A DNA stretch of 64,000 nucleotides from Rhizobium binae (GTDB taxonomy: Bacteria; Pseudomonadota; Alphaproteobacteria; Rhizobiales; Rhizobiaceae): NCBI RefSeq assembly GCF_017357225.1, contig NZ_CP071604.1, positions 2,173,001 to 2,237,000 on the forward strand, read 5' to 3'. Below the pieces are notes generated by a model that saw only the letters and a program-made list of their open reading frames with translations, was not told the origin of the DNA and did not search any database. The position numbers were made by a program, and so were the translations under genes. Position 1 is the stretch's first letter. Each line of letters starts with the position of its first letter. This document shows, piece after piece, positions 14,066-23,421 of this stretch.

Positions 14066-14316
14066 TGCAGCCGGCCGAGACAATGAAACCCGGTCAGACG
14101 CGGCCAGATCCGGCTTGCACCGACCCGGCCTGGCCAGATCCTGCGTGGGAAGTGGAAGCCGTGCTGGCCTGGCATGACGACGATGCCAAGGCGGCGATCC
14201 GCTCGCTGCTCGACGACTGCAGGCATCTGCGCCGGCAACTGGCACTGGCGGAAAGCGTGATGAGCCGCGGAATGGCCCGCGGCTGGACACCGCGATACGA
14301 ACGCGACGCGCTCTAA
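14065..14316 (+). CDS. small hypothetical protein, coupled to the preceding gene
   Basis: An 83-residue protein. The first 30 residues are low complexity with a near-repeat (TRPDPACTDPAW, then PDPAW). The rest is a plausible folded helical part (EVEAVLAWHDDDAKAAIRSL then LLDDCRHLRRQLALAESVMS), ending in RGWTPRYERDAL. The start overlaps the previous stop codon by one base. It ends four bases inside the 3-prime end of the convergent RidA gene. I do not recognise the family. Confidence 0.6.
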   Translation: MQPAETMKPGQTRPDPACTDPAWPDPAWEVEAVLAWHDDDAKAAIRSLLDDCRHLRRQLALAESVMSRGMARGWTPRYERDAL

Positions 14317-14702
14317 AATACTTTGGCGGCCGTTACTTCGACTTCCACAAGGAATTCGGGGCGGGTGAAGCCGGCGACGATGATCAGCGTCGAGGTCGGT
14401 TTCGGATCGAGCGTGTAACGATCCCGGACGGCCATATAGTCGGGGAAGTGCTCGCGCTTCGTCACAAAACCCGAGATCCGGATGACGTCGGCAAAACTCA
14501 TCTCCGCCTCGGCAAGTATAGCCCTGATTGCCTGGAAGCAAAGGTCTGCCTGCGCGCCGACGTCCTCCGGCACCTTCTCGTCGAGACCGATGCCGAGTTG
14601 TCCCGAGGTCACGAGCAACGAGGCGCCCGGCGGCACCAGCAGTCCGTGATTGTAATTCCCGAAGGGACGGCGCACGGACGAGGGATTGAAAATCATCTTC
14701 AT
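14313..14702 (-). CDS. RidA family (YjgF/UK114) protein
   Basis: A 129-residue RidA-type protein. LVTSGQLGIGLDEKVPEDVGAQADLCFQ and the closing PEFLVEVEVTA are typical of the family. RidA-type enzymes hydrolyse reactive enamines/imines or aminoacrylates; RutC of the pyrimidine pathway is a relative. It is the last gene of the minus-strand operon that begins at 20758, and its ATG abuts the preceding stop codon with no gap. In this setting it probably clears a reactive intermediate made by the deaminase or oxidase upstream. That role is inferred. Confidence 0.85.
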   Translation of the reverse strand: MKMIFNPSSVRRPFGNYNHGLLVPPGASLLVTSGQLGIGLDEKVPEDVGAQADLCFQAIRAILAEAEMSFADVIRISGFVTKREHFPDYMAVRDRYTLDPKPTSTLIIVAGFTRPEFLVEVEVTAAKVF

Positions 14703-15284
14703 TCAGAAGCGCTCCATCGCCGTCTTCACCTTCTCCAGAAACCTCGCCCGGGTGTCCGCTGTGCAGTTGTTCATGTCGTAATGCGCAAGAAAGGTGACCG
14801 GTCTTAGCGGATTGATCTGCGCTCTCAGGACACGTTTGACGATTTTCTTCGGCGGATTGCCGGCCGCGAAGGCGCGAAACGGCGTGGCACCGTATGTCAG
14901 AACGGCTGCGAGCTTTCTGATATGGCGCAGCCGCGATTCCACCTTGCCGTCGACGAGGTCGAAGGAAACGCCGGGAAGCCAGACGCGGTCGAAATAGCCC
15001 TTCAGGATCGCCGGGAAACCGAAATTCCAGATCGGCGTCACCAGCACCAGCCCTTCGGCTTGTTTCAGCCGCTCGACATAGGGTTTTACCAGATCGGTGT
15101 TGGCGGGATAGTCGTGATAGATGAGCCGGTCCTGGCGGGAGAGCACGGGATCGAATTGCTCGGCATAAAGATCGCAGGCATCCACTGCGTGACCGGCTTT
15201 CTGAAGGCTTTCCAGCGTCTGTTTGTAAAGTGCCTTGCCGTAGCTTTCCTCGACCGGATGCGAGTGAAGAACGAGAACGTTCAT
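14703..15284 (-). CDS. NAD(P)H-dependent flavodoxin-fold oxidoreductase
   Basis: A 193-residue protein of the KefF/NQO1 flavodoxin-like fold. The N-terminal VLVLHSHPVEESYGKAL is the FMN/FAD phosphate loop, and LVLVTPIWNFGFPAILKGYFDRV (around residues 80-100) is the family hallmark. It is expected to reduce quinones or small flavin substrates using NAD(P)H. The start overlaps the previous stop codon by one base, so the gene is translationally coupled within the operon. It may supply reduced flavin or reduce an intermediate of the pathway; the exact substrate is unknown. Confidence 0.85.
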   Translation of the reverse strand: MNVLVLHSHPVEESYGKALYKQTLESLQKAGHAVDACDLYAEQFDPVLSRQDRLIYHDYPANTDLVKPYVERLKQAEGLVLVTPIWNFGFPAILKGYFDRVWLPGVSFDLVDGKVESRLRHIRKLAAVLTYGATPFRAFAAGNPPKKIVKRVLRAQINPLRPVTFLAHYDMNNCTADTRARFLEKVKTAMERF

Positions 15285-16690
15285 CAGGCCTCCATGACGC
15301 TTGCAAGCCCTGGAAACAGATAGTTCTTGCCGGCATTGAAGTCGAAATCAGGATTCTCCCAGGCAATCATCTTGCCGGGGTTCAGCAGCCCGCGGGGATC
15401 GGTCTCGTGCTTGAAGGCGAGCTGCACCTTGTCGGTACGCTTCATGCCGCCTTCCTCCAGCGTGTAGCGGTGCGGATTGAAGATCGGGCAGCCATGATCC
15501 TGATGGATCTTGATGATTTCTTCGAGCCGTTCCGCCGTGGTGTAGCGCACCAGCGGCAGGCCGGAGCATTGGATCTGCCCGTCGAATTTGATGAATTCGA
15601 GATGACCCGGCACTTCGTCACCGAAGATTTCCACCATCTTGGCGACCTTGGCCACGTGATCCGGGCCCGGATACTGCACTTGCAGATAGGTGAAGCTGGG
15701 ATCGACCTTGAGGGCGCGCAGCGTCGTGTGGTTCCAGGCAAGTTCATAGGCATGCGGAATGCCCTTCAAGCTCTCGACCCTGTCGGAGCGGAAGATGACC
15801 TCGCCCTTGTGGGCGGCGGTAAAGGCGAGGAAGGCATCCATGGAATGCGGCGCGATCATCAGCACCACCACCGACTGGCCCTTGCGGATATAGGGTTTAT
15901 GCCGGGTGAAATAGTCGTACGGTATCGGTGCGGCGATCGGCGCGATCTCCTTGACCAGGATGCCGTTGCATTTGGCGAGCGCATCCGAGAAGCGCACGGC
16001 GGCCATGAAGTCGTCGTAGCCGACGAGCACGTCGACCCAGTCATAGGCGGGCGCCAGCGGCATTTCGATCTCGGTGATGATGCCGTTGGTGCCATAGGCA
16101 TGGCTGACCTTCTGCAGGTCCCAGCCGGTGAGATCGAGCACGCGCGGCTCGGCCTCCATGGTGACGACGCGCAGGCGCAGAATATTGCCGAGGTCGCGCA
16201 ACCCGCCCCAGGTGATCGAACCGACGCCGCCGGAACCGCCGGCGATGAAGCCGCCCACTGTTGCCGTCTGGGCCGTCGACGGATGGAAACGCAGTTCCTG
16301 GCCGGAATGGGCCTTGGTCTGCTTGTCGAGCTGGGCGAGCACGATACCCGGTTCGCAGATCACCCGGCCCGGATGGATCTCCTTGATCTTATTCATGGCT
16401 GCAAGGTTCAGCACGATACCGCCGGAAAGCGGCATGGCCTGGCCGTAATTGCCGGTGCCGGCGCCGCGCGGGGTCACCGGCACGCCATGGACAAAGGCGA
16501 CCTTCAAGGTCCGGATCACCTCTTCCTCGTTCTTCGGCGTGACGACGAGATCGGCCGTCACATTGTCGAGCTGCGCCTTCAGGATCGGTGAATACCAGTA
16601 GAAATCACGGCTCTTCTGGCGCACCAGCGCCGGATTGTCCTCGACGGCTATGCCCTCGAGTTCCGTTTTGATCCTTTGATAATCCGGCAT
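15284..16690 (-). CDS. FAD-linked oxidase (GlcD/VAO type)
   Basis: A 468-residue VAO-fold flavoprotein. The FAD_binding_4 domain spans about residues 40-215 (VVTPKNEEEVIRTLK; VTPRGAGTGNYGQ; GSGGVGSITWGGLRDLG). The C-terminal half is a FAD-oxidase C domain ending in the usual DPRGLLNPGKMI. The family oxidises hydroxy acids or related compounds. The start at 16690 lies one base after the stop of the amidohydrolase gene, so the longer open frame to 16744 is not used. It is a soluble enzyme of the operon. No Fe-S subunit lies next to it, so the electron acceptor is open. Confidence 0.85.
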   Translation of the reverse strand: MPDYQRIKTELEGIAVEDNPALVRQKSRDFYWYSPILKAQLDNVTADLVVTPKNEEEVIRTLKVAFVHGVPVTPRGAGTGNYGQAMPLSGGIVLNLAAMNKIKEIHPGRVICEPGIVLAQLDKQTKAHSGQELRFHPSTAQTATVGGFIAGGSGGVGSITWGGLRDLGNILRLRVVTMEAEPRVLDLTGWDLQKVSHAYGTNGIITEIEMPLAPAYDWVDVLVGYDDFMAAVRFSDALAKCNGILVKEIAPIAAPIPYDYFTRHKPYIRKGQSVVVLMIAPHSMDAFLAFTAAHKGEVIFRSDRVESLKGIPHAYELAWNHTTLRALKVDPSFTYLQVQYPGPDHVAKVAKMVEIFGDEVPGHLEFIKFDGQIQCSGLPLVRYTTAERLEEIIKIHQDHGCPIFNPHRYTLEEGGMKRTDKVQLAFKHETDPRGLLNPGKMIAWENPDFDFNAGKNYLFPGLASVMEA

Positions 16691-16691
16691 G

Positions 16692-18005
16692 TCAGGCTCC
16701 AACGAGGTTATCGAGTTCGCGATAGTCCGGCAGGCTGCGGTCAATCACCTTGCCGCGGCGAAGCACGACGCGGTCGGACTGCGGACGGGAAAGAAATTCG
16801 CTCCAGCGCCGGGCGCTGAAGAGCACGAGATCGGCCGGGGCACCGGCGGCGATGCGCCCCTTGTCGGACCTGCCGAGAATTTCGGCGGGCGAGGCGGTGA
16901 TGACCCGCGCCGCCGTGTCCAGCGGATGGTCGAGATGCAGGATGCGGACCGCCTCGCGAAACACCTCCACCGGGTCGAGATCGCCATAGGCGTAGAAGGG
17001 GTCGCGGGTATTGTCGGAGGCGACCGCCGTTGCCACGCCGGCCGCGGCCAATTCCTTGAAAAGGGTAATGCCGCGCCAGCGCGGTGTGCGGCCGGGATAG
17101 CGGTCCTGCAGATACATGTTGCACATCGGCAGCGAGACGACGCCGACACCGGCCTCCGCGACCAGTGCGACTGTGCGCTTTGCCGTCTCTTCGTCATGCC
17201 GGGCGAGCGAGCAGCAATGGCCGGCTGTCACCTTGCCGTCGAAACGGTTGCGCAACACGGCCTGGGCGATTGCTTTCAAGGTTTCGGCAGCCGGATCGTC
17301 GGTCTCGTCGACATGGAGGTCGACGTCGAGGCCGCTATCGGCCGCCGCTCTGAACAGCGTGTCGAGCTGACTGTCGAGATCGGGGCTCATCCGGGTGACG
17401 CCGCCGATCAGGCCGCCCTTGTCGCGAACGACGGCGACGAGGTCGGCGAAATAGGCGGCATCCGCCATGTTTTCCATCGGGAAGAGGGCCACCGCCTGCA
17501 ACGCGATCCTGTCCTTCCAGGCGTCGCGGATCTCGGCAAAGACCTCGAAGGAAATGCGATGCTGTGGCGCCAGGGAGTCGAGATGGGTGCGGATCAGGCT
17601 GGTGCCGTGCGCATAGGCCGACCGCAGGGAGAATTCCATGCGCTTCTTGACGTCGCCGGCCGACCAGTTGGCTTCGCGGTCGGCGCGCACTGCTTCCAAT
17701 GCTCCCGGAAATGTGCCGTCCGGATTGGCGCTGCGCGGCCAGATATGACCCTTGTCGAGATGGGTGTGCATATCGGTGAAGCAGGGCCAGACCATGCCTT
17801 CCCTGAGATCCGATTTCGCCAGTTCGGCCGGCGCTGCGCCGGGCGGCACCACGGCGGCGATGATGCCGTCGGTGATGACGAGGTCGGCCTTGACGAGGCC
17901 TTCGACGGCAGGGGCGTCGTAGCCGGTGACCGCAGCTGCAGGCAGCGTCGCGTTGCTCAGCGCGAAGCGGCCGGCATTGGGTGGGGAAATGAAGGAATGG
18001 GTCAT
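16692..18005 (-). CDS. amidohydrolase, cytosine-deaminase-like
   Basis: A 437-residue metal-dependent hydrolase of the CodA type. Metal ligands appear in order: DMHTHLDKGH (HxH, near residue 80), DLHVDETDD (His), TAGHCCSLA (His) and the Asp in VASDNTRDPF. CodA-type enzymes deaminate cytosine, isocytosine or creatinine; related members act on other cyclic amidines. The gene overlaps the permease stop codon by one base. The operon context, with an importer and a creatininase-family gene under the same operator, points to a cyclic nitrogen compound, but the substrate is not fixed by sequence. Confidence 0.85.
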   Translation of the reverse strand: MTHSFISPPNAGRFALSNATLPAAAVTGYDAPAVEGLVKADLVITDGIIAAVVPPGAAPAELAKSDLREGMVWPCFTDMHTHLDKGHIWPRSANPDGTFPGALEAVRADREANWSAGDVKKRMEFSLRSAYAHGTSLIRTHLDSLAPQHRISFEVFAEIRDAWKDRIALQAVALFPMENMADAAYFADLVAVVRDKGGLIGGVTRMSPDLDSQLDTLFRAAADSGLDVDLHVDETDDPAAETLKAIAQAVLRNRFDGKVTAGHCCSLARHDEETAKRTVALVAEAGVGVVSLPMCNMYLQDRYPGRTPRWRGITLFKELAAAGVATAVASDNTRDPFYAYGDLDPVEVFREAVRILHLDHPLDTAARVITASPAEILGRSDKGRIAAGAPADLVLFSARRWSEFLSRPQSDRVVLRRGKVIDRSLPDYRELDNLVGA

Positions 18006-18847
18006 CAGTTTTCCCGCTTCAGGCTGCTCTCATGCCAACGGTGCAGGGCAAGCCAGGAAATGAACGAGGTGACGGCAAAGATCGCCACACCGAGCAGGGA
18101 GAGCATCAGCAGCGCGGCGAAGAGGCGCGGAATGTTGAGCCGGTACTGCGCTTCGAGAAGCCGAAAGGCGAGGCCGGAGCCTGCCCCCGCCGAGCCCGCG
18201 GCAAATTCCGCGACGACGGCCGCGATCAGCGCAAGACCGCCGCCGATCCTGAGGCCGGTCATGAAATAGGGTTGGGCGGCCGGCAGCTTGAGATAAAGCA
18301 GCGTCTGCCAGCGCGAGGCGCCGTAAAGCTCGAAGAGGTTGATGAGATTGTGATCGACGCTTTTCAGCCCTTGAACCATGTTCGAAAGGATCGGGAAAAA
18401 GGCGACGAGGAACGCGCAGATTAGAAGCGCCACCTGCGTCGACGGCGCATAGATGAGAATCAATGGCGAGATTGCCACGATCGGCGTGACCTGTAGAATG
18501 ACCGCGAGCGGATAGAAGGCGAGTTCGATCCAGCGCGACTGCACGAGGAAGATCGCAAAGCCGACGCCACCGACCAGCGCCAGCATCAGCGATATCAGGG
18601 TGATCTTGGTCGTGACCCAGAGGGCAGGGGCAAGCGTGCCCCAGTCGGTTACGAAGGCGTTGGCGACCGCCGCCGGGCCCGGCAGGATATAGGGCGGCAC
18701 GCCGGACAGAGCCACATAGGCGTACCAGATCAGGATCAGCGAGGCGATGACCAGCAACGGGGTCAAGATGCGCAGCGCCAGATCGCGGCGCCTGGCGCTT
18801 GCAGCGCCTTTGACCGGCAGCGGCGCTACGACGGTTTCGTCATTCAT
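18005..18847 (-). CDS. ABC transporter permease (SsuC/TauC type)
   Basis: A 280-residue inner-membrane permease with about six helices. It carries the EAA-type loop (NLFELYGASRWQTLLYLKLPAAQPYFMTGLRIGG, near residues 175-210) typical of the nitrate/sulfonate/pyrimidine-precursor importer family. The ATG at 18847 overlaps the ATPase stop codon by four bases (ATGA), which fixes the start against a longer open frame. It forms the importer with the ATPase at 18844 and the binding protein at 19742. Confidence 0.9.
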   Translation of the reverse strand: MNDETVVAPLPVKGAASARRRDLALRILTPLLVIASLILIWYAYVALSGVPPYILPGPAAVANAFVTDWGTLAPALWVTTKITLISLMLALVGGVGFAIFLVQSRWIELAFYPLAVILQVTPIVAISPLILIYAPSTQVALLICAFLVAFFPILSNMVQGLKSVDHNLINLFELYGASRWQTLLYLKLPAAQPYFMTGLRIGGGLALIAAVVAEFAAGSAGAGSGLAFRLLEAQYRLNIPRLFAALLMLSLLGVAIFAVTSFISWLALHRWHESSLKREN

Positions 18848-19671
18848 CGATGATCCTCCGCCGCATTGATCGCCCCGATGAGTGAATGTGAGACCGTCTC
18901 GCAGGCTTTGCGGTATTCTTCGGAAGTGCGGTAATGGGCGTCGCGTTCCAAGCTGGTCGTCAGCGGCAGGTCGGCATGCACGCGTCCGGGCCTTGCCTTC
19001 ATCACGACGATGCGGTTCGAGAGATAGGCGGATTCGAAGACCGAATGGGTGACGAAGATAACCGTGATGCCGGTCGTCTTCCACAGCCTGAGCACGTCGT
19101 CGTTCAGCCTCTGGCGGGTGATCTCGTCAAGCGCTGCGAAGGGCTCGTCCATCAGCAGCAGCTTCGGCTTCGTCACCAGCGCGCGAGCGATCGAGACGCG
19201 CATCTTCATGCCGCCGGAAAGCTCGCGCGGATAGGCCCGCGCGAAATCCTGGAGGCCGACGGTGGTCAGCGCTTCCACGATCTGATCATGCGCCGCCGTC
19301 CTGGAGATATGTCGGAGCTTCAGCGGCAGATGGACATTGTCGAAAACGTTCTTCCAGGGCATCAGTGTCGGTTCCTGGAACACGAAGCCGATATCTCCTT
19401 CCGGAAGGCCCCTGGAATTGATGCGCGAACTCGGCCAGTCGATCGCGCCCGATGTGGCGTCGCCGAGGCCGGCGATGATGCGCAGTGCCGTCGACTTGCC
19501 GCAGCCGGAAGGGCCGAGCAGGCTGATGAACTCACCGCTCTCCACCGTCAGCGACATGTTGGAAAGGGCCGCCGTTCCGCTGGAGAAGACTTTCGAGACC
19601 GATTGCATGACGACCAGCGGCCGCTTGCGCGTCTCTTTCGGGGATAGGGCCTGAGCTTCTGCTGGGGGCAT
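18844..19671 (-). CDS. ABC transporter ATPase (SsuB/TauB type)
   Basis: A 275-residue ATPase with Walker [10 protein letters not shown] (near residue 55), signature LSGGMKMRVSIARAL, Walker B LLLMDEPFAALDE and the switch His in FVTHSVFES. It energises the SsuABC-like importer of the operon from the cytoplasmic side. It is separated from the upstream binding-protein gene by a 70-base gap holding a strong hairpin, and overlaps the downstream permease by four bases. Confidence 0.9.
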   Translation of the reverse strand: MPPAEAQALSPKETRKRPLVVMQSVSKVFSSGTAALSNMSLTVESGEFISLLGPSGCGKSTALRIIAGLGDATSGAIDWPSSRINSRGLPEGDIGFVFQEPTLMPWKNVFDNVHLPLKLRHISRTAAHDQIVEALTTVGLQDFARAYPRELSGGMKMRVSIARALVTKPKLLLMDEPFAALDEITRQRLNDDVLRLWKTTGITVIFVTHSVFESAYLSNRIVVMKARPGRVHADLPLTTSLERDAHYRTSEEYRKACETVSHSLIGAINAAEDHR

Positions 19672-19696
19672 TGCCTGTCTCGTTCATGCGGGGAGG

Positions 19697-19726
19697 TGTG
19701 ATCCGCCGTGTTTGCGGCGGATCACA
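19697..19726 (-). other. intercistronic hairpin after the binding-protein gene
   Basis: TGTGATCCGCCG and CGGCGGATCACA form a 12-bp perfect stem with a 6-base loop (symmetric on both strands) between the binding-protein and ATPase genes. Such hairpins usually protect the upstream message or cause partial termination, giving more binding protein than membrane subunits. No T-run follows, so it is not a full terminator. Confidence 0.6.
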
Positions 19727-19741
19727 GGCGGCGTCCGCCGC

Positions 19742-20758
19742 CTACTTCTTCATCGCCATTCCGGTGTTCTTGCAGACGAATTTGGTTGTAAAGGCCTTGG
19801 TATAGTCCGTCTCCGGTTTGAACACCTTGATATCAACCATCTCGTCGAAGAACGCTTTGTAGTGCGCGTCGGTCATGCAGCCGATGCCCTTGTCCAGGCT
19901 GTCGCCGGATTCGATGATGCCGTATTCCTTCATCTTGGCGATTGAGTAGGCGATCTGGCCATCGGTCATTTCAGGATTATCCTTCTTGATCAGCTCGTTG
20001 GCCTTGCTGTTGTCGCCGTAGAGATAGTTGTACCAGCCTTCGATCGAAGCATCGACGAAGCGTTGGACGACATCAGGCTTGCTGTCGATCATTGCCTGGG
20101 TGGTGGTTATCATCGTCGAATAGGGTGAATAGCCGTTATCGGCGAGCAGGAAGACCTTTGGCTCGAAACCGGCCTGCTTCTGAATCTCATAGGGTTCCGA
20201 GGTCAGGTAACCTTGCTGTGCCGAATCCTTGTCGGCAAGGAATGGAGCCGGGCTGAAATTGTAGGGCTTGTACTGCTCGTCCCGGAAGCCTTTGAAGTTC
20301 GCCTTCATCCATTCGAAATAGGTGAGATAGCCGTCCTTGCCGAGAAAAAGCGTCTTGAGCTTCGCGAGATCTTCGAACTTCTCGATGCCGGAATCGGGGT
20401 GCGCGATCAGCACCTGCGGATCCTTCTGGAAGATCGCCGCGACGTCGACGAGCGGAATGCCCTGTTCGACGGCCGAGATCTCGCCCTGCGGGCCACCCAT
20501 GTAAAAGTCGATCTTGCCCGAAATCAAAAGCGCGCTGTTGGCCGCATTCGGGCCGCCCTGGACGATGGTCACGTCGAGGCCATGTTTCGCATAGGTGCCA
20601 TCGGCGACCGCCTGATAAAACCCGCCATGTTCGGCCTGCGCCAGCCAGTTCGTGCCGTAGCTGACTTTGTCGGCCGCTTGCACGGATGCGATCGAGACAA
20701 GAATTCCGCCGAGGCCGGCAAGTGCGGAAAAGACGCTGTTCTTCAGTATATTCGACAT
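19742..20758 (-). CDS. ABC substrate-binding protein (NMT1/THI5-like)
   Basis: A 338-residue precursor with a signal peptide of about 28 residues ending VQAADK. The mature N-terminus reads YGTNWLAQAEHGGFYQAVADGTYAKHGLDV, the hallmark of the NMT1/THI5-like periplasmic proteins that bind pyrimidines, thiamine precursors, riboflavin or related heterocycles. It is the first gene of the minus-strand operon and lies 79 bases from a strong inverted-repeat operator that also precedes the creatininase gene. The ligand is unknown; a cyclic nitrogen compound is likely from the operon content. Confidence 0.88.
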   Translation of the reverse strand: MSNILKNSVFSALAGLGGILVSIASVQAADKVSYGTNWLAQAEHGGFYQAVADGTYAKHGLDVTIVQGGPNAANSALLISGKIDFYMGGPQGEISAVEQGIPLVDVAAIFQKDPQVLIAHPDSGIEKFEDLAKLKTLFLGKDGYLTYFEWMKANFKGFRDEQYKPYNFSPAPFLADKDSAQQGYLTSEPYEIQKQAGFEPKVFLLADNGYSPYSTMITTTQAMIDSKPDVVQRFVDASIEGWYNYLYGDNSKANELIKKDNPEMTDGQIAYSIAKMKEYGIIESGDSLDKGIGCMTDAHYKAFFDEMVDIKVFKPETDYTKAFTTKFVCKNTGMAMKK

Positions 20759-20837
20759 GATCGACGTTCCCCTCGTGAGCCCGCAACGTCTCTGGCGACG
20801 TCAGGTTTTCCTCATAGGAGCGATTGCTTTGCTCTTT

Positions 20838-20873
20838 GAAAAGCATCAAATTTCGTGCGCAATGATGCCTTTT
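20838..20873. promoter_or_regulatory. LysR operator, copy 1
   Basis: GAAAAGCATCA, 16 bases, then ATGCCTTTT. The outer parts form an imperfect inverted repeat with inner arms GCATCA and TGATGC. The site lies between the divergent binding-protein and lysR genes. The same two arms with identical spacing recur at 22764-22799. Two matching copies in the two promoters flanking one regulator are good evidence for a shared operator. Confidence 0.75.
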
Positions 20874-20937
20874 CGGCATCCCACCGAAAGCCTGTGCCTA
20901 ATTTGCGCTATGCGCTTCTTTTTTGTGCAACGAGGTC

Positions 20938-21891
20938 ATGATGCTGCATTCCAGAAAGCTTCTCTATATCAACGAGATCGCGCGCTCGGGGTCGATCCGG
21001 AAAGCGGCCGCGCGTTTGAACGTGGCGTCATCGGCGATCAATCGACAGATTCTGGCGCTGGAAGAGGAAATGGGTGCGCCGCTCTTCGAGCGCTTGCCGC
21101 GCGGCCTGCGCCTGACGGCGGCCGGCGAGCTCTGCATCGAGCATATTCGCGAGGTCCTGAAGAATTATGAGCGGTTGGAGGGCCGCATCCGTAGCCTGAA
21201 GATGCAGCAGGCCGGCAAAGTGCGACTGGTGACCACGGTCGGCCTTGCGGCTGGACCGCTGCCTGACATCATTGCACGTTTCCAGTCGGAGCATCCACGT
21301 GTTTTCATGCAATTGCGCAACGACGCCGGCACGATGACGGTCAATCCAGTGCTGTCGGGTGAAGTCGATATTGGCCTCGGCTTCAATATTCCGGCAACGC
21401 CCGGCATCCGCACCCTTGGCAATTTCGACATTCCGATCGGCGTCGTCTTGCCGCTGGGCCATCATCTGATCAATCCAGGTCCGATCAATCTGGCCGATAT
21501 CGTCCAGGAACGTCTGGTGCTGGCCCAGCAGGGTACCAGCCTGCGCGATGTGATCAATCTGGCCCTGGCGCGGCTTGATGTACCTGTCGAGCCGGTTCTC
21601 GAAACCAATGCGTCGGAGATGCTGAAGAAGCTGGTCAAATCGGGAGCAGGGCTGACGATCCTGAACCCGCTCGACGTCATCACCGAATGCCGCCAGGGCG
21701 AACTGGTCTTCCGGCCGATCGCCGAGCCGCATGCGCGCCACCAGCCGATGAAGCTTTTTGCCCGCGCCCGCGCCCCACTCGATTCCGCGACCAGCCTCTT
21801 CGTCGAGTATCTGCTGGCCGAACTCGCGGGCCTGGTGGAGGAACTGCAGGCCAAAGGCCACATCGCGGTGGAGAAAACCGCCGCGATCTGA
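20938..21891 (+). CDS. LysR family regulator of the deaminase/importer operon
   Basis: A 317-residue LysR-type regulator. The HTH is at about residues 5-62 (YINEIARSGSIRKAAARLNVASSAINRQI; LEEEMGAPLFERLPRGLRLT). The rest is the effector-binding domain. The CbbR/CysB-like N-terminus and a GAGG near the tandem ATG at 20938 support the start. It is divergent from the importer operon and has the creatininase gene immediately after it on the other strand. The operator copies at 20838 and 22764 make it the likely control point for both units. The inducer is unknown. Confidence 0.9.
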   Translation: MMLHSRKLLYINEIARSGSIRKAAARLNVASSAINRQILALEEEMGAPLFERLPRGLRLTAAGELCIEHIREVLKNYERLEGRIRSLKMQQAGKVRLVTTVGLAAGPLPDIIARFQSEHPRVFMQLRNDAGTMTVNPVLSGEVDIGLGFNIPATPGIRTLGNFDIPIGVVLPLGHHLINPGPINLADIVQERLVLAQQGTSLRDVINLALARLDVPVEPVLETNASEMLKKLVKSGAGLTILNPLDVITECRQGELVFRPIAEPHARHQPMKLFARARAPLDSATSLFVEYLLAELAGLVEELQAKGHIAVEKTAAI

Positions 21892-21918
21892 GCCCCATCT
21901 CAGGGATGGAACCCTATT

Positions 21919-22710
21919 TCAATAGAGATTCGACAGCGGGTAGCGCTTCAGGTCACGGAGCAGTTCGACAAATCCCTCGACCTGGTGGCGGCAGATCGCT
22001 TCGCCCTTTTCGGCTGTTCCGCGCGAGGCGTCGCCCACAACGCCGTTCGGATTGAGGTCGTGGGCGATCCAGGCAAGGGAATGCGGCGGCAGGGGCTGGA
22101 TATACTTCGATTGCTGGCGCATCCATTCGGCCTTCGAGGTGAAATTCTGCGCCTTGTCCATCCGCACCAGATCGGGACGGAAATAGAGCATCAGCGAGGT
22201 TTCCACCTCGCCGCCGTGGATGCCGTATTTCAGCTCGTGTTCGCCGATCATCCCCTCGGGATGGCCGAATCGGCCCCATTGCGTCGAGAGGACGGCCATC
22301 TGACACCGGACCCGCAACTCGCGCGCGACGATGCTCATGATGTCGACATTGCCGCCATGCGAATTGACGATCACCATCTTACGGATGCCGGCTTCGGCGA
22401 CCTTGACGCCGATCGCTGTCCAGACAGGAATGAGCAATTCCGCACTCAGCGACAGTGTTCCCGGTCCGTGGATATGCTCGTTCGCCTTGCCGATCTCCTG
22501 CGTCGGCAGGACGAGAAAATCGAGATCCTCGGGCTTCTGCTTTCGCAGTTCGTCCAGCATGCCGTTGGCGATCACGACGTCCGTTGCGATCGGCAGGTGC
22601 GGGCCGTGCTGTTCGGTCGAGGCAATGGGAAGGATGGCGATCGTCGTGTCCGGCGACAGTCCGGCGAAATCATAGGTATTCAATTCGTTCCAGTAGAATG
22701 GCAGTGCCAT
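21919..22710 (-). CDS. creatininase family protein
   Basis: A 263-residue metal-dependent amidohydrolase of the creatininase fold. The metal ligands are visible: STEQHGPHLPIATDV (Glu, His, Asp) and NSHGGN (His), with a later Glu in GIHGGEVETSLM. Family members hydrolyse creatinine or open other cyclic amides (formylaminopyrimidine, MftE peptides). GAGAGG seven bases before the ATG at 22710 fixes the start. It is convergent with lysR, and its promoter carries operator copy 2. It likely acts in the same pathway as the deaminase operon; the substrate is inferred only. Confidence 0.88.
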   Translation of the reverse strand: MALPFYWNELNTYDFAGLSPDTTIAILPIASTEQHGPHLPIATDVVIANGMLDELRKQKPEDLDFLVLPTQEIGKANEHIHGPGTLSLSAELLIPVWTAIGVKVAEAGIRKMVIVNSHGGNVDIMSIVARELRVRCQMAVLSTQWGRFGHPEGMIGEHELKYGIHGGEVETSLMLYFRPDLVRMDKAQNFTSKAEWMRQQSKYIQPLPPHSLAWIAHDLNPNGVVGDASRGTAEKGEAICRHQVEGFVELLRDLKRYPLSNLY

Positions 22711-22763
22711 AACCGCGCCTCTCATTGCCGTTCTGATCGTGAGTAAGAAAAATCGTTACACGC

Positions 22764-22799
22764 GAAAAGCATCAATTTGCGCCTGCACCGATGCCTTTT
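22764..22799. promoter_or_regulatory. LysR operator, copy 2
   Basis: GAAAAGCATCA, 16 bases, then ATGCCTTTT: the same arms and spacing as the site at 20838-20873, here 54 bases before the creatininase start. The middle bases differ, so the conserved arms look selected and not simply duplicated. Confidence 0.75.
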
Positions 22800-22941
22800 T
22801 GCGGATGATGGCGAGGCGCACTCGCGCGGGCTGTCGTCTTCAAGCGGAATTGCGGAAAGGGAATTGACCAAAGCCATTGCGCCGGCGGTTCGGCAATGGT
22901 TCTCTTGGCTTCGACTATCCCAAGCTTTCCGGTGATTCCCG

Positions 22942-23421
22942 ATGTTCGATATTCTGTGGCGCGGCCTGGCGATCGGCGCCGGCGCAACCATCCTCATGGA
23001 CTTCTGGGCGATCGTGCTCGCCAAGGTCTTCGGCCAGCCGCCGGCCAATTGGGCGCCGGTCGGCCGCTGGTTCTGGCATCTTCGCCGCGGCAAGGTCTTT
23101 CACGACAACATTGCCGATGCCGAGCCCTATGAGCATGAACTGGCACTCGGCTGGATCAGCCACTACGCCGTCGGCATTCTCTACGGCGTGATCTTCGCGA
23201 TCATCATGGGACAGGCGTGGTTGGCCGCACCGACATTCCTGCCCGCCTGGATCTTCGGCATCGTTACCGTGGGGGCAGGGTGGTTCCTGCTGCAGCCCGG
23301 CCTCGGTCTCGGCTGGGCCGCTGCCAAACATCCGAAGCCGATGAAGGTCCGTTGCTTCAATCTGCTGGCGCATACGGTGTTTGCGTTAGGACTTTATGGT
23401 ATGGCGTTGATTTTGCGCTGA
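22942..23421 (+). CDS. DUF2938 membrane protein
   Basis: A 159-residue inner-membrane protein with about four hydrophobic segments (near 5-25, 72-92, 98-116 and 138-157). The N-terminal GLAIGAGATILMDFWA and the conserved NWAPVGRWFWHL segment (residues 36-47) identify DUF2938. The function is unknown. It is divergent from the creatininase gene, although no operator lies closer than 140 bases to its start. A ribosome site is weak. Confidence 0.8.
   Translation: MFDILWRGLAIGAGATILMDFWAIVLAKVFGQPPANWAPVGRWFWHLRRGKVFHDNIADAEPYEHELALGWISHYAVGILYGVIFAIIMGQAWLAAPTFLPAWIFGIVTVGAGWFLLQPGLGLGWAAAKHPKPMKVRCFNLLAHTVFALGLYGMALILR

Follow-up and report, generated by a model that had tools for sequence, protein, structure and literature searches.

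What compound do the genes around a divergent lysR gene of Rhizobium binae act on, and what ties their two promoters together? The stretch analysed, 64,000 nucleotides of contig NZ_CP071604.1 (the window), holds this lysR gene, an importer-enzyme operon, a detached creatininase-family gene and two 36-bp operator-like sites. We conclude that the locus is most probably a LysR-controlled catabolic regulon for pteridines, i.e. free pterins and/or folate-derived pterins (probability of about 0.78). The initial annotation of this DNA had assigned the set to an unknown cyclic nitrogen compound; that description gives way, since the deaminase groups with tested pterin deaminases and the oxidase with the flavin oxygenase of PDB entry 6v42.

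The initial annotation had described one identical pair of arms around a 16-base spacer at both sites, and we confirmed the arms and their coordinates (Table 1). On the operon strand the element has the outline AAAAGGCATC-N16-GATGCTTTTC, and its arms form an imperfect inverted repeat. Site 1 sits between the start codons of the divergent lysR and the operon, and the two sites have equal orientation toward the minus-strand genes downstream of each. A genome-wide pattern search found two exact copies in the 7,055,288-base genome and one further match with 3 mismatches 194 kb off; 100 shuffles of the window gave 0 matches at ≤3 mismatches. The arms had also been taken as selected because the middle bases differ. 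The arms are identical, but the middle is not free, being conserved too: among 67 copies of site 1, each of the seven bases ahead of the right arm (CGAAtTT) holds 1.2-2.0 bits, and the average for the middle is 1.54 bits, compared with 0.69 and 1.12 bits for the flanks. The middle of site 2 is weaker, at 1.06 bits against 0.29 and 0.55 bits (66 copies).

Both sites recur in the genus. We compared the window with 29 same-genus loci fetched with it (L031-L059) and found the order creatininase-like gene, lysR, solute-binding protein, ATPase, permease, deaminase, oxidase and reductase kept in all 29. Site 1 is exact in the window and in 28 of the 29, with 2 mismatches in L058, and site 2 has 0-2 mismatches in 29/29.

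The wider comparison covered 80 named loci, from Rhizobium to Roseibium, Martelella, Bosea and Labrys. A lysR of this kind is present in 67, and all 67 have site 1, with 0, 1, 2, 3 and 4 mismatches in 40, 18, 6, 2 and 1 loci, respectively. Site 2 was found in 66/66 lysR loci that keep the creatininase-like gene (0-4 mismatches in 60 and 5-6 in six); the 67th, L139, has no creatininase-like gene within its stretch. Shuffled regions gave a mean of about 9-10 mismatches with minima of 5-8; hence, the weakest copies of site 2 are insecure alone. In whole-locus scans, the 13 loci that lack this lysR showed no site with ≤4 mismatches; these 13 include L126, which is cut at the permease gene so that no site could show there, and L150, whose 42% LysR match falls under the 55% threshold. 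In another, L127, the enzymes are kept, lysR is absent from its 21 kb, and a single 5-mismatch match lies before the solute-binding protein gene. This one case looks like a remnant of site 1, as expected of an operator decaying after loss of its regulator.

Genome-wide counts with a refined pattern gave two sites in 32 of 40 genus genomes, three in G022, one in G003 (a fragmented genome with a split deaminase gene) and none in six; the reversed pattern gave 0 in 40/40. Hence, the dyad is not a repeat family. The six site-free genomes (G004, G007, G013, G016, G025 and G032) are the six without the deaminase. Among the 37 genomes common to both searches, sites occur in 31/31 that bear the deaminase and in 0/6 that do not, a pattern with a probability of 1/C(37,6) = 4.3e-7 were the genomes independent, which related genomes are not. 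The recurring site set of the genus is the two sites of this locus. The third element in G022 (L248, position 4691) is site-2-like, has no recognisable regulon gene beside it and is perhaps a remnant.

These counts bear on whether the dyad is bound by another regulator, or is a repeat or RNA element there by chance. LysR binding to the dyad is a deduction, and 36 bp is long for a single LysR box. We nevertheless consider this alternative unlikely: exactly two copies occur in most genus genomes, the orientation is fixed with site 1 between two divergent start codons, and the site is present in 67/67 lysR loci against, at ≤4 mismatches, 0/13 lysR-less ones. Both sites are real, are nearly unique in the genome and keep their sequence and place, and they accompany the gene set and lysR. 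The initial annotation had proposed to check whether the pattern always flanks this gene set in rhizobia, and it does, although 1 of the 40 genus genomes has an additional site; its grouping of importer, deaminase, oxidase, reductase, RidA and creatininase-like enzyme into one set also held, as all eight structural genes occur together in 65 of the 80 named loci at the thresholds used.

We infer that LysR controls both promoters. A hexamer resembling a -10 box lies 18 bases after site 1 (TCCTAT in the window and TCAAAT in most loci), and another, CCTANT-like, lies about 16 bases after site 2. At these distances the sites would cover the -35 region, as with an activator. The six genes after that for the solute-binding protein are spaced by ≤70 bases, mostly overlapping or abutting; hence, they look like one operon.

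The deaminase is related to enzymes of known activity. A 399-residue protein of Variovorax sp. F1 deaminates folate and pteroate (You et al. 2022, PMC9513972). That report gives 37.0% identity between the F1 pterin deaminase and Arad3529, primers that imply an MKLEAVR start and an SQENIA end, and an endoribonuclease gene downstream, which we take as RidA-type (PMC9513972). A search with these primers in 399 genomes of one betaproteobacterial family gave three matches, of which L180 reads as an unrelated protein. Protein P0222 has 399 residues and both ends as in the F1 enzyme. It is 36.7% identical to the window deaminase and 38.6% identical to P0243, which bears the name Rhizobium rhizogenes; the relation to the tested enzyme is at the published level through P0222, with Arad3529 entering by the published figure alone. 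The Variovorax homologue P0132 carries the UniRef name 'Pterin deaminase'.

We found that H80, H82, H231, E234, H263 and D331 of the window deaminase, residues with catalytic roles in amidohydrolases, have aligned counterparts in solved cytosine deaminases and in F1-type enzymes, and that the motifs HxH, HVDE, GHxCSL and DN are common to it and the F1-type protein. NCBI gives Rhizobium rhizogenes K84 as a strain of a species now called Martinezella rhizogenes, and we take this K84 to be that of Arad3529. From the P0222 match, the two identities and the strain name, the window deaminase is a probable ortholog of Arad3529. Fan et al. in 2013 reportedly found Arad3529 active on a broad range of pterins. 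By comparison, the deaminase thus matches tested pterin deaminases in sequence, in catalytic residues and, in most of the Variovorax loci fetched, in gene neighbourhood.

Other amidohydrolases were weighed as counterparts of Arad3529. That of L153 was set aside at 30.1% identity to P0222. The paralogue beside a 2-oxoglutarate oxygenase in L157, 36.3% identical to P0222, may be the ortholog, judged by identity alone. L157 lies on a Rhizobium leguminosarum plasmid, and there the paralogue (46% identical to the deaminase) stands with a LysR gene (40%), an ABC importer and the 2-oxoglutarate/iron oxygenase; these genes may form a sister cluster that serves a related compound. Deaminase paralogues at 48% identity occur in 2 of 61 relatives. 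Plasmids of Shinella (L158) and Aminobacter (L159) carry deaminases of about 50% identity in a different type of neighbourhood, linked to GntR, which includes genes of the isochorismatase family, for a tautomerase and for a dipicolinate-synthase-like protein.

Among solved structures, 6v42 is the closest to the oxidase (721.7 bits over 458 residues; 66% identity by Foldseek), and the match is near full length in both sequence and fold. The PDB title of 6v42 reads 'flavin oxygenase ... involved in folate catabolism'. By comparison, the oxidase is a close relative of this deposited enzyme.

A creatininase-family gene and a CodA-like deaminase in one set could suggest degradation of creatinine, hydantoin or another small cyclic amide, toward which the initial annotation leaned. 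We found the creatininase-like protein well below creatininase proper (equivalog TIGR04448, 97.1 bits against a cut-off of 235). Since the nearest solved relative of the oxidase is titled a folate-catabolism oxygenase and the deaminase matches pterin deaminases, this substrate class is very improbable. The motifs EQHGPHLP, D, NSHGGN and GGxxETS of the protein are invariant or nearly so in the alignment, and the conserved start is likely 22710 instead of 22725.

In the window and in 4 of the 29 same-genus loci the RidA gene is co-directional; 20 of these loci have it in convergent orientation, and in the other 5 it was not found. No third site beside it recurs with the refined pattern in the 40 genus genomes.

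The enzymes also occur together in other lineages. One Comamonadaceae plasmid and one Salipiger plasmid carry, by annotation, the same eight gene kinds (reductase, amidohydrolase, creatininase-family, substrate-binding, ATPase, permease, FAD oxidoreductase and RidA), and on both a TetR-family gene takes the place of lysR. A Variovorax set comprises 24 of the 32 matches with 36-44% identity (E ≤ 3.7e-52). All 24 loci have an F1-type gene, whose product shows an identity to P0222 of 72.7-78.9% in 23 loci and of 63.5% in L215; RidA adjoins the deaminase in 22; and 18 hold creatininase-like, ATPase, permease, oxidase, solute-binding protein and TetR genes in the stretch. Hence, the regulators differ (LysR and TetR) and the enzymes stay together. 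Many Variovorax genomes have two deaminase relatives, which belong to two versions of the gene set; compared with the L155 protein, one has 73-77% identity and the other about 36-44%.

Several observations weigh against a pterin regulon controlled as proposed. An identity of about 37% leaves room for another substrate in the amidohydrolase superfamily, and the term folate catabolism for 6v42 has the PDB title as its sole source. A consensus scan of positions 20600-22950 found no sigma-70 promoter; hence, the -10-like hexamers are an alignment reading only. The co-occurrence of lysR and site is partly phylogeny, the lysR-less loci being mostly more distant relatives. Six of the 24 F1-type loci have no creatininase-like, VAO or ABC genes in the stretch; three of the six have a VAO oxidase 13-14 kb away on the same contig, genomes G843 and G853 have only a VAO relative of 39-40% identity on another contig, and G848 has none at 1e-60. 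The loci nearest P0222 (L230, L236 and L229) have an adjacent RidA gene, and the VAO oxidase is 13-14 kb off.

A further such point is a name: the window deaminase scores 694.2 bits against a cut-off of 403 for NCBIfam model NF005759, 'cytosine deaminase', which is a family name and no tested activity. The set could accordingly salvage or degrade pyrimidines, either cytosine analogues or the thiamin pyrimidine HMP, taken up by the NMT1/THI5-type binding protein, whose PDB relatives include the formyl-aminopyrimidine-binding protein 3ix1 and THI5. The classical cytosine deaminase model PRK09230 gives 127.8 bits against a cut-off of 483, a 6v42-type flavoenzyme would be left unexplained, and the tested deaminase relatives act on folate and pteroate (PMC9513972). 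We regard pyrimidines as very unlikely.

The last such point concerns purines. A search for further constant genes across lineages returned mainly shadow open reading frames; what it added of value was, in Variovorax, a flavohemoprotein-type reductase together with the tetronate genes and, elsewhere, an 8-oxoguanine-deaminase-like gene. The latter lies between the creatininase-like and RidA genes in six deeper alphaproteobacterial loci (L141, L143, L145, L148, L151 and L220; the L220 copy alone was compared with solved structures) and could point to purines. The set would then act on oxidised purines, 8-oxoguanine for example, and pterins would be side substrates. We saw no such gene in the window cluster, and the oxidase title and the tested deaminases favour folate or pterin, which makes purines a very unlikely substrate.

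For the pterin regulon, the Variovorax loci suggest a possible fate of the side chain. The deaminase gene directly follows that of a 2-oxo-tetronate isomerase in 23 of the 24 loci, with (extrapolated starts) a 4-base overlap in 19, a 1-base overlap in two and a gap of 8 in two; one overlap was read directly in the sequence. The loci also hold L-threonate dehydrogenase (23/24) and D-erythronate dehydrogenase (14/24). The representative isomerase, kinase and both dehydrogenases score above their NCBIfam cut-offs, and the decarboxylase falls just under (225 against 250). Outside Variovorax, at most one tetronate gene occurs in 6 other betaproteobacterial and 20 alphaproteobacterial loci, and none was found at 1e-20 in 65 rhizobial loci; the window genome has a tetronate kinase on another contig, away from both sites. 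In Variovorax loci such as L228 and L234, the flavohemoprotein/NADH-oxidoreductase-type reductase gene stands between the TetR and flavodoxin-fold reductase genes, and a possible role is electron donor for the oxygenase.

Tentatively, the regulon may belong to a complete pathway for unconjugated pterins such as monapterin and neopterin, with an importer dedicated to pterins and flavoenzyme ring cleavage that leaves C6 on the trihydroxypropyl side chain; we consider this possible but doubtful. Cleavage of the deaminated ring by the flavoenzyme would yield D-erythronate from D-erythro-neopterin and L-threonate from L-threo-monapterin. Such release would explain the position of the F1-type gene after the 2-oxo-tetronate isomerase. 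This exit of the side chain is our own proposal, suggested by gene order in one genus only.

In the pterin regulon as we envisage it, LysR would bind both sites and, upon a pteridine signal, activate both the importer-enzyme operon and the creatininase-like gene. The pterin would enter through the NMT1-type ABC importer, and the deaminase would convert it to a lumazine by removal of the 2-amino group. With the flavodoxin-fold reductase, the flavoenzyme would oxidise the pyrazine ring; the creatininase-family hydrolase would open a resulting cyclic amide or ureide; and RidA would hydrolyse reactive enamine or imine products. The order of steps past deamination is a guess.

Table 1. Features of the putative pterin regulon, in window positions.
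Feature	Position	Strand	Basis or remark
RidA-family protein	14313..14702	-	last operon gene in window
Flavodoxin-fold NAD(P)H oxidoreductase	14703..15284	-	Flavodoxin_2 104.8 bits
VAO-fold flavin oxygenase/oxidase, close relative of PDB 6v42	15284..16690	-	sequence and fold match
CodA-like amidohydrolase, predicted pterin deaminase	16692..18005	-	family models, alignment, relatives
ABC importer permease	18005..18850	-	
ABC importer ATPase	18844..19671	-	
ABC importer solute-binding protein, NMT1/THI5-type, candidate pterin binder	19742..20758	-	Pfam NMT1 98.2 bits against cut-off 20.5
Operator-like site 1	20838..20873	-	36 bp; intergenic region of divergent lysR and importer operon
LysR-type regulator	20938..21891	+	divergent from operon; Pfam HTH_1 67 bits, LysR_substrate 132.3 bits
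Creatininase-family hydrolase	21919..22725	-	Pfam Creatininase (PF02633) 240.5 bits against 31.3
Operator-like site 2	22764..22799	-	36 bp; precedes creatininase-family gene

Pterins are the ring portion of folate, and their breakdown is a vitamin-related route so far known only in fragments. The 2013 paper on Arad3529 is said to have placed pterin deaminase at the start of an as yet undescribed route of pterin degradation. The 2022 Variovorax study left open what follows deamination (PMC9513972). Pterins are also reported to act as signals that limit biofilm formation in Agrobacterium, and control of their breakdown could matter for signalling; if the proposed route for unconjugated pterins is true, the rhizobial regulon could also clear pterins acting as signals. 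If a pterin regulon it is, its regulator and the two defined sites would allow the pathway to be tested in an ordinary rhizobium. Each enzyme is known by itself; in the excerpts of open-licence literature searched, we found no described pterin regulon, nor LysR, its two sites and the full set as one.

The closest known systems each share part of this design. The pterin deaminases of K84 (Arad3529) and Variovorax sp. F1 resemble the window enzyme in about 37% identity to the F1-type protein, in shared motifs and in a RidA-type neighbour in Variovorax; unlike the window set, F1 is described in the excerpted report as a single enzyme, without importer, oxygenase, creatininase-like gene, LysR or operator (PMC9513972). 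The folate-catabolism flavin oxygenase of 6v42 and 6v43 is a near full-length close homologue of the window oxidase, although the sequences are not identical and the functional likeness is by title only. The Rut pyrimidine pathway likewise has an operon that encodes both a flavin enzyme and a RidA-family protein; the window RidA misses the RutC model (23.3 bits against a cut-off of 169.1), which sets the Rut pathway aside, and the window set has a CodA-like deaminase, an ABC importer and a creatininase-like gene. Finally, LysR-regulated divergent catabolic operons have a divergent lysR and a site in the shared intergenic region, whereas the window has a second 36-bp copy before a detached gene beyond lysR.

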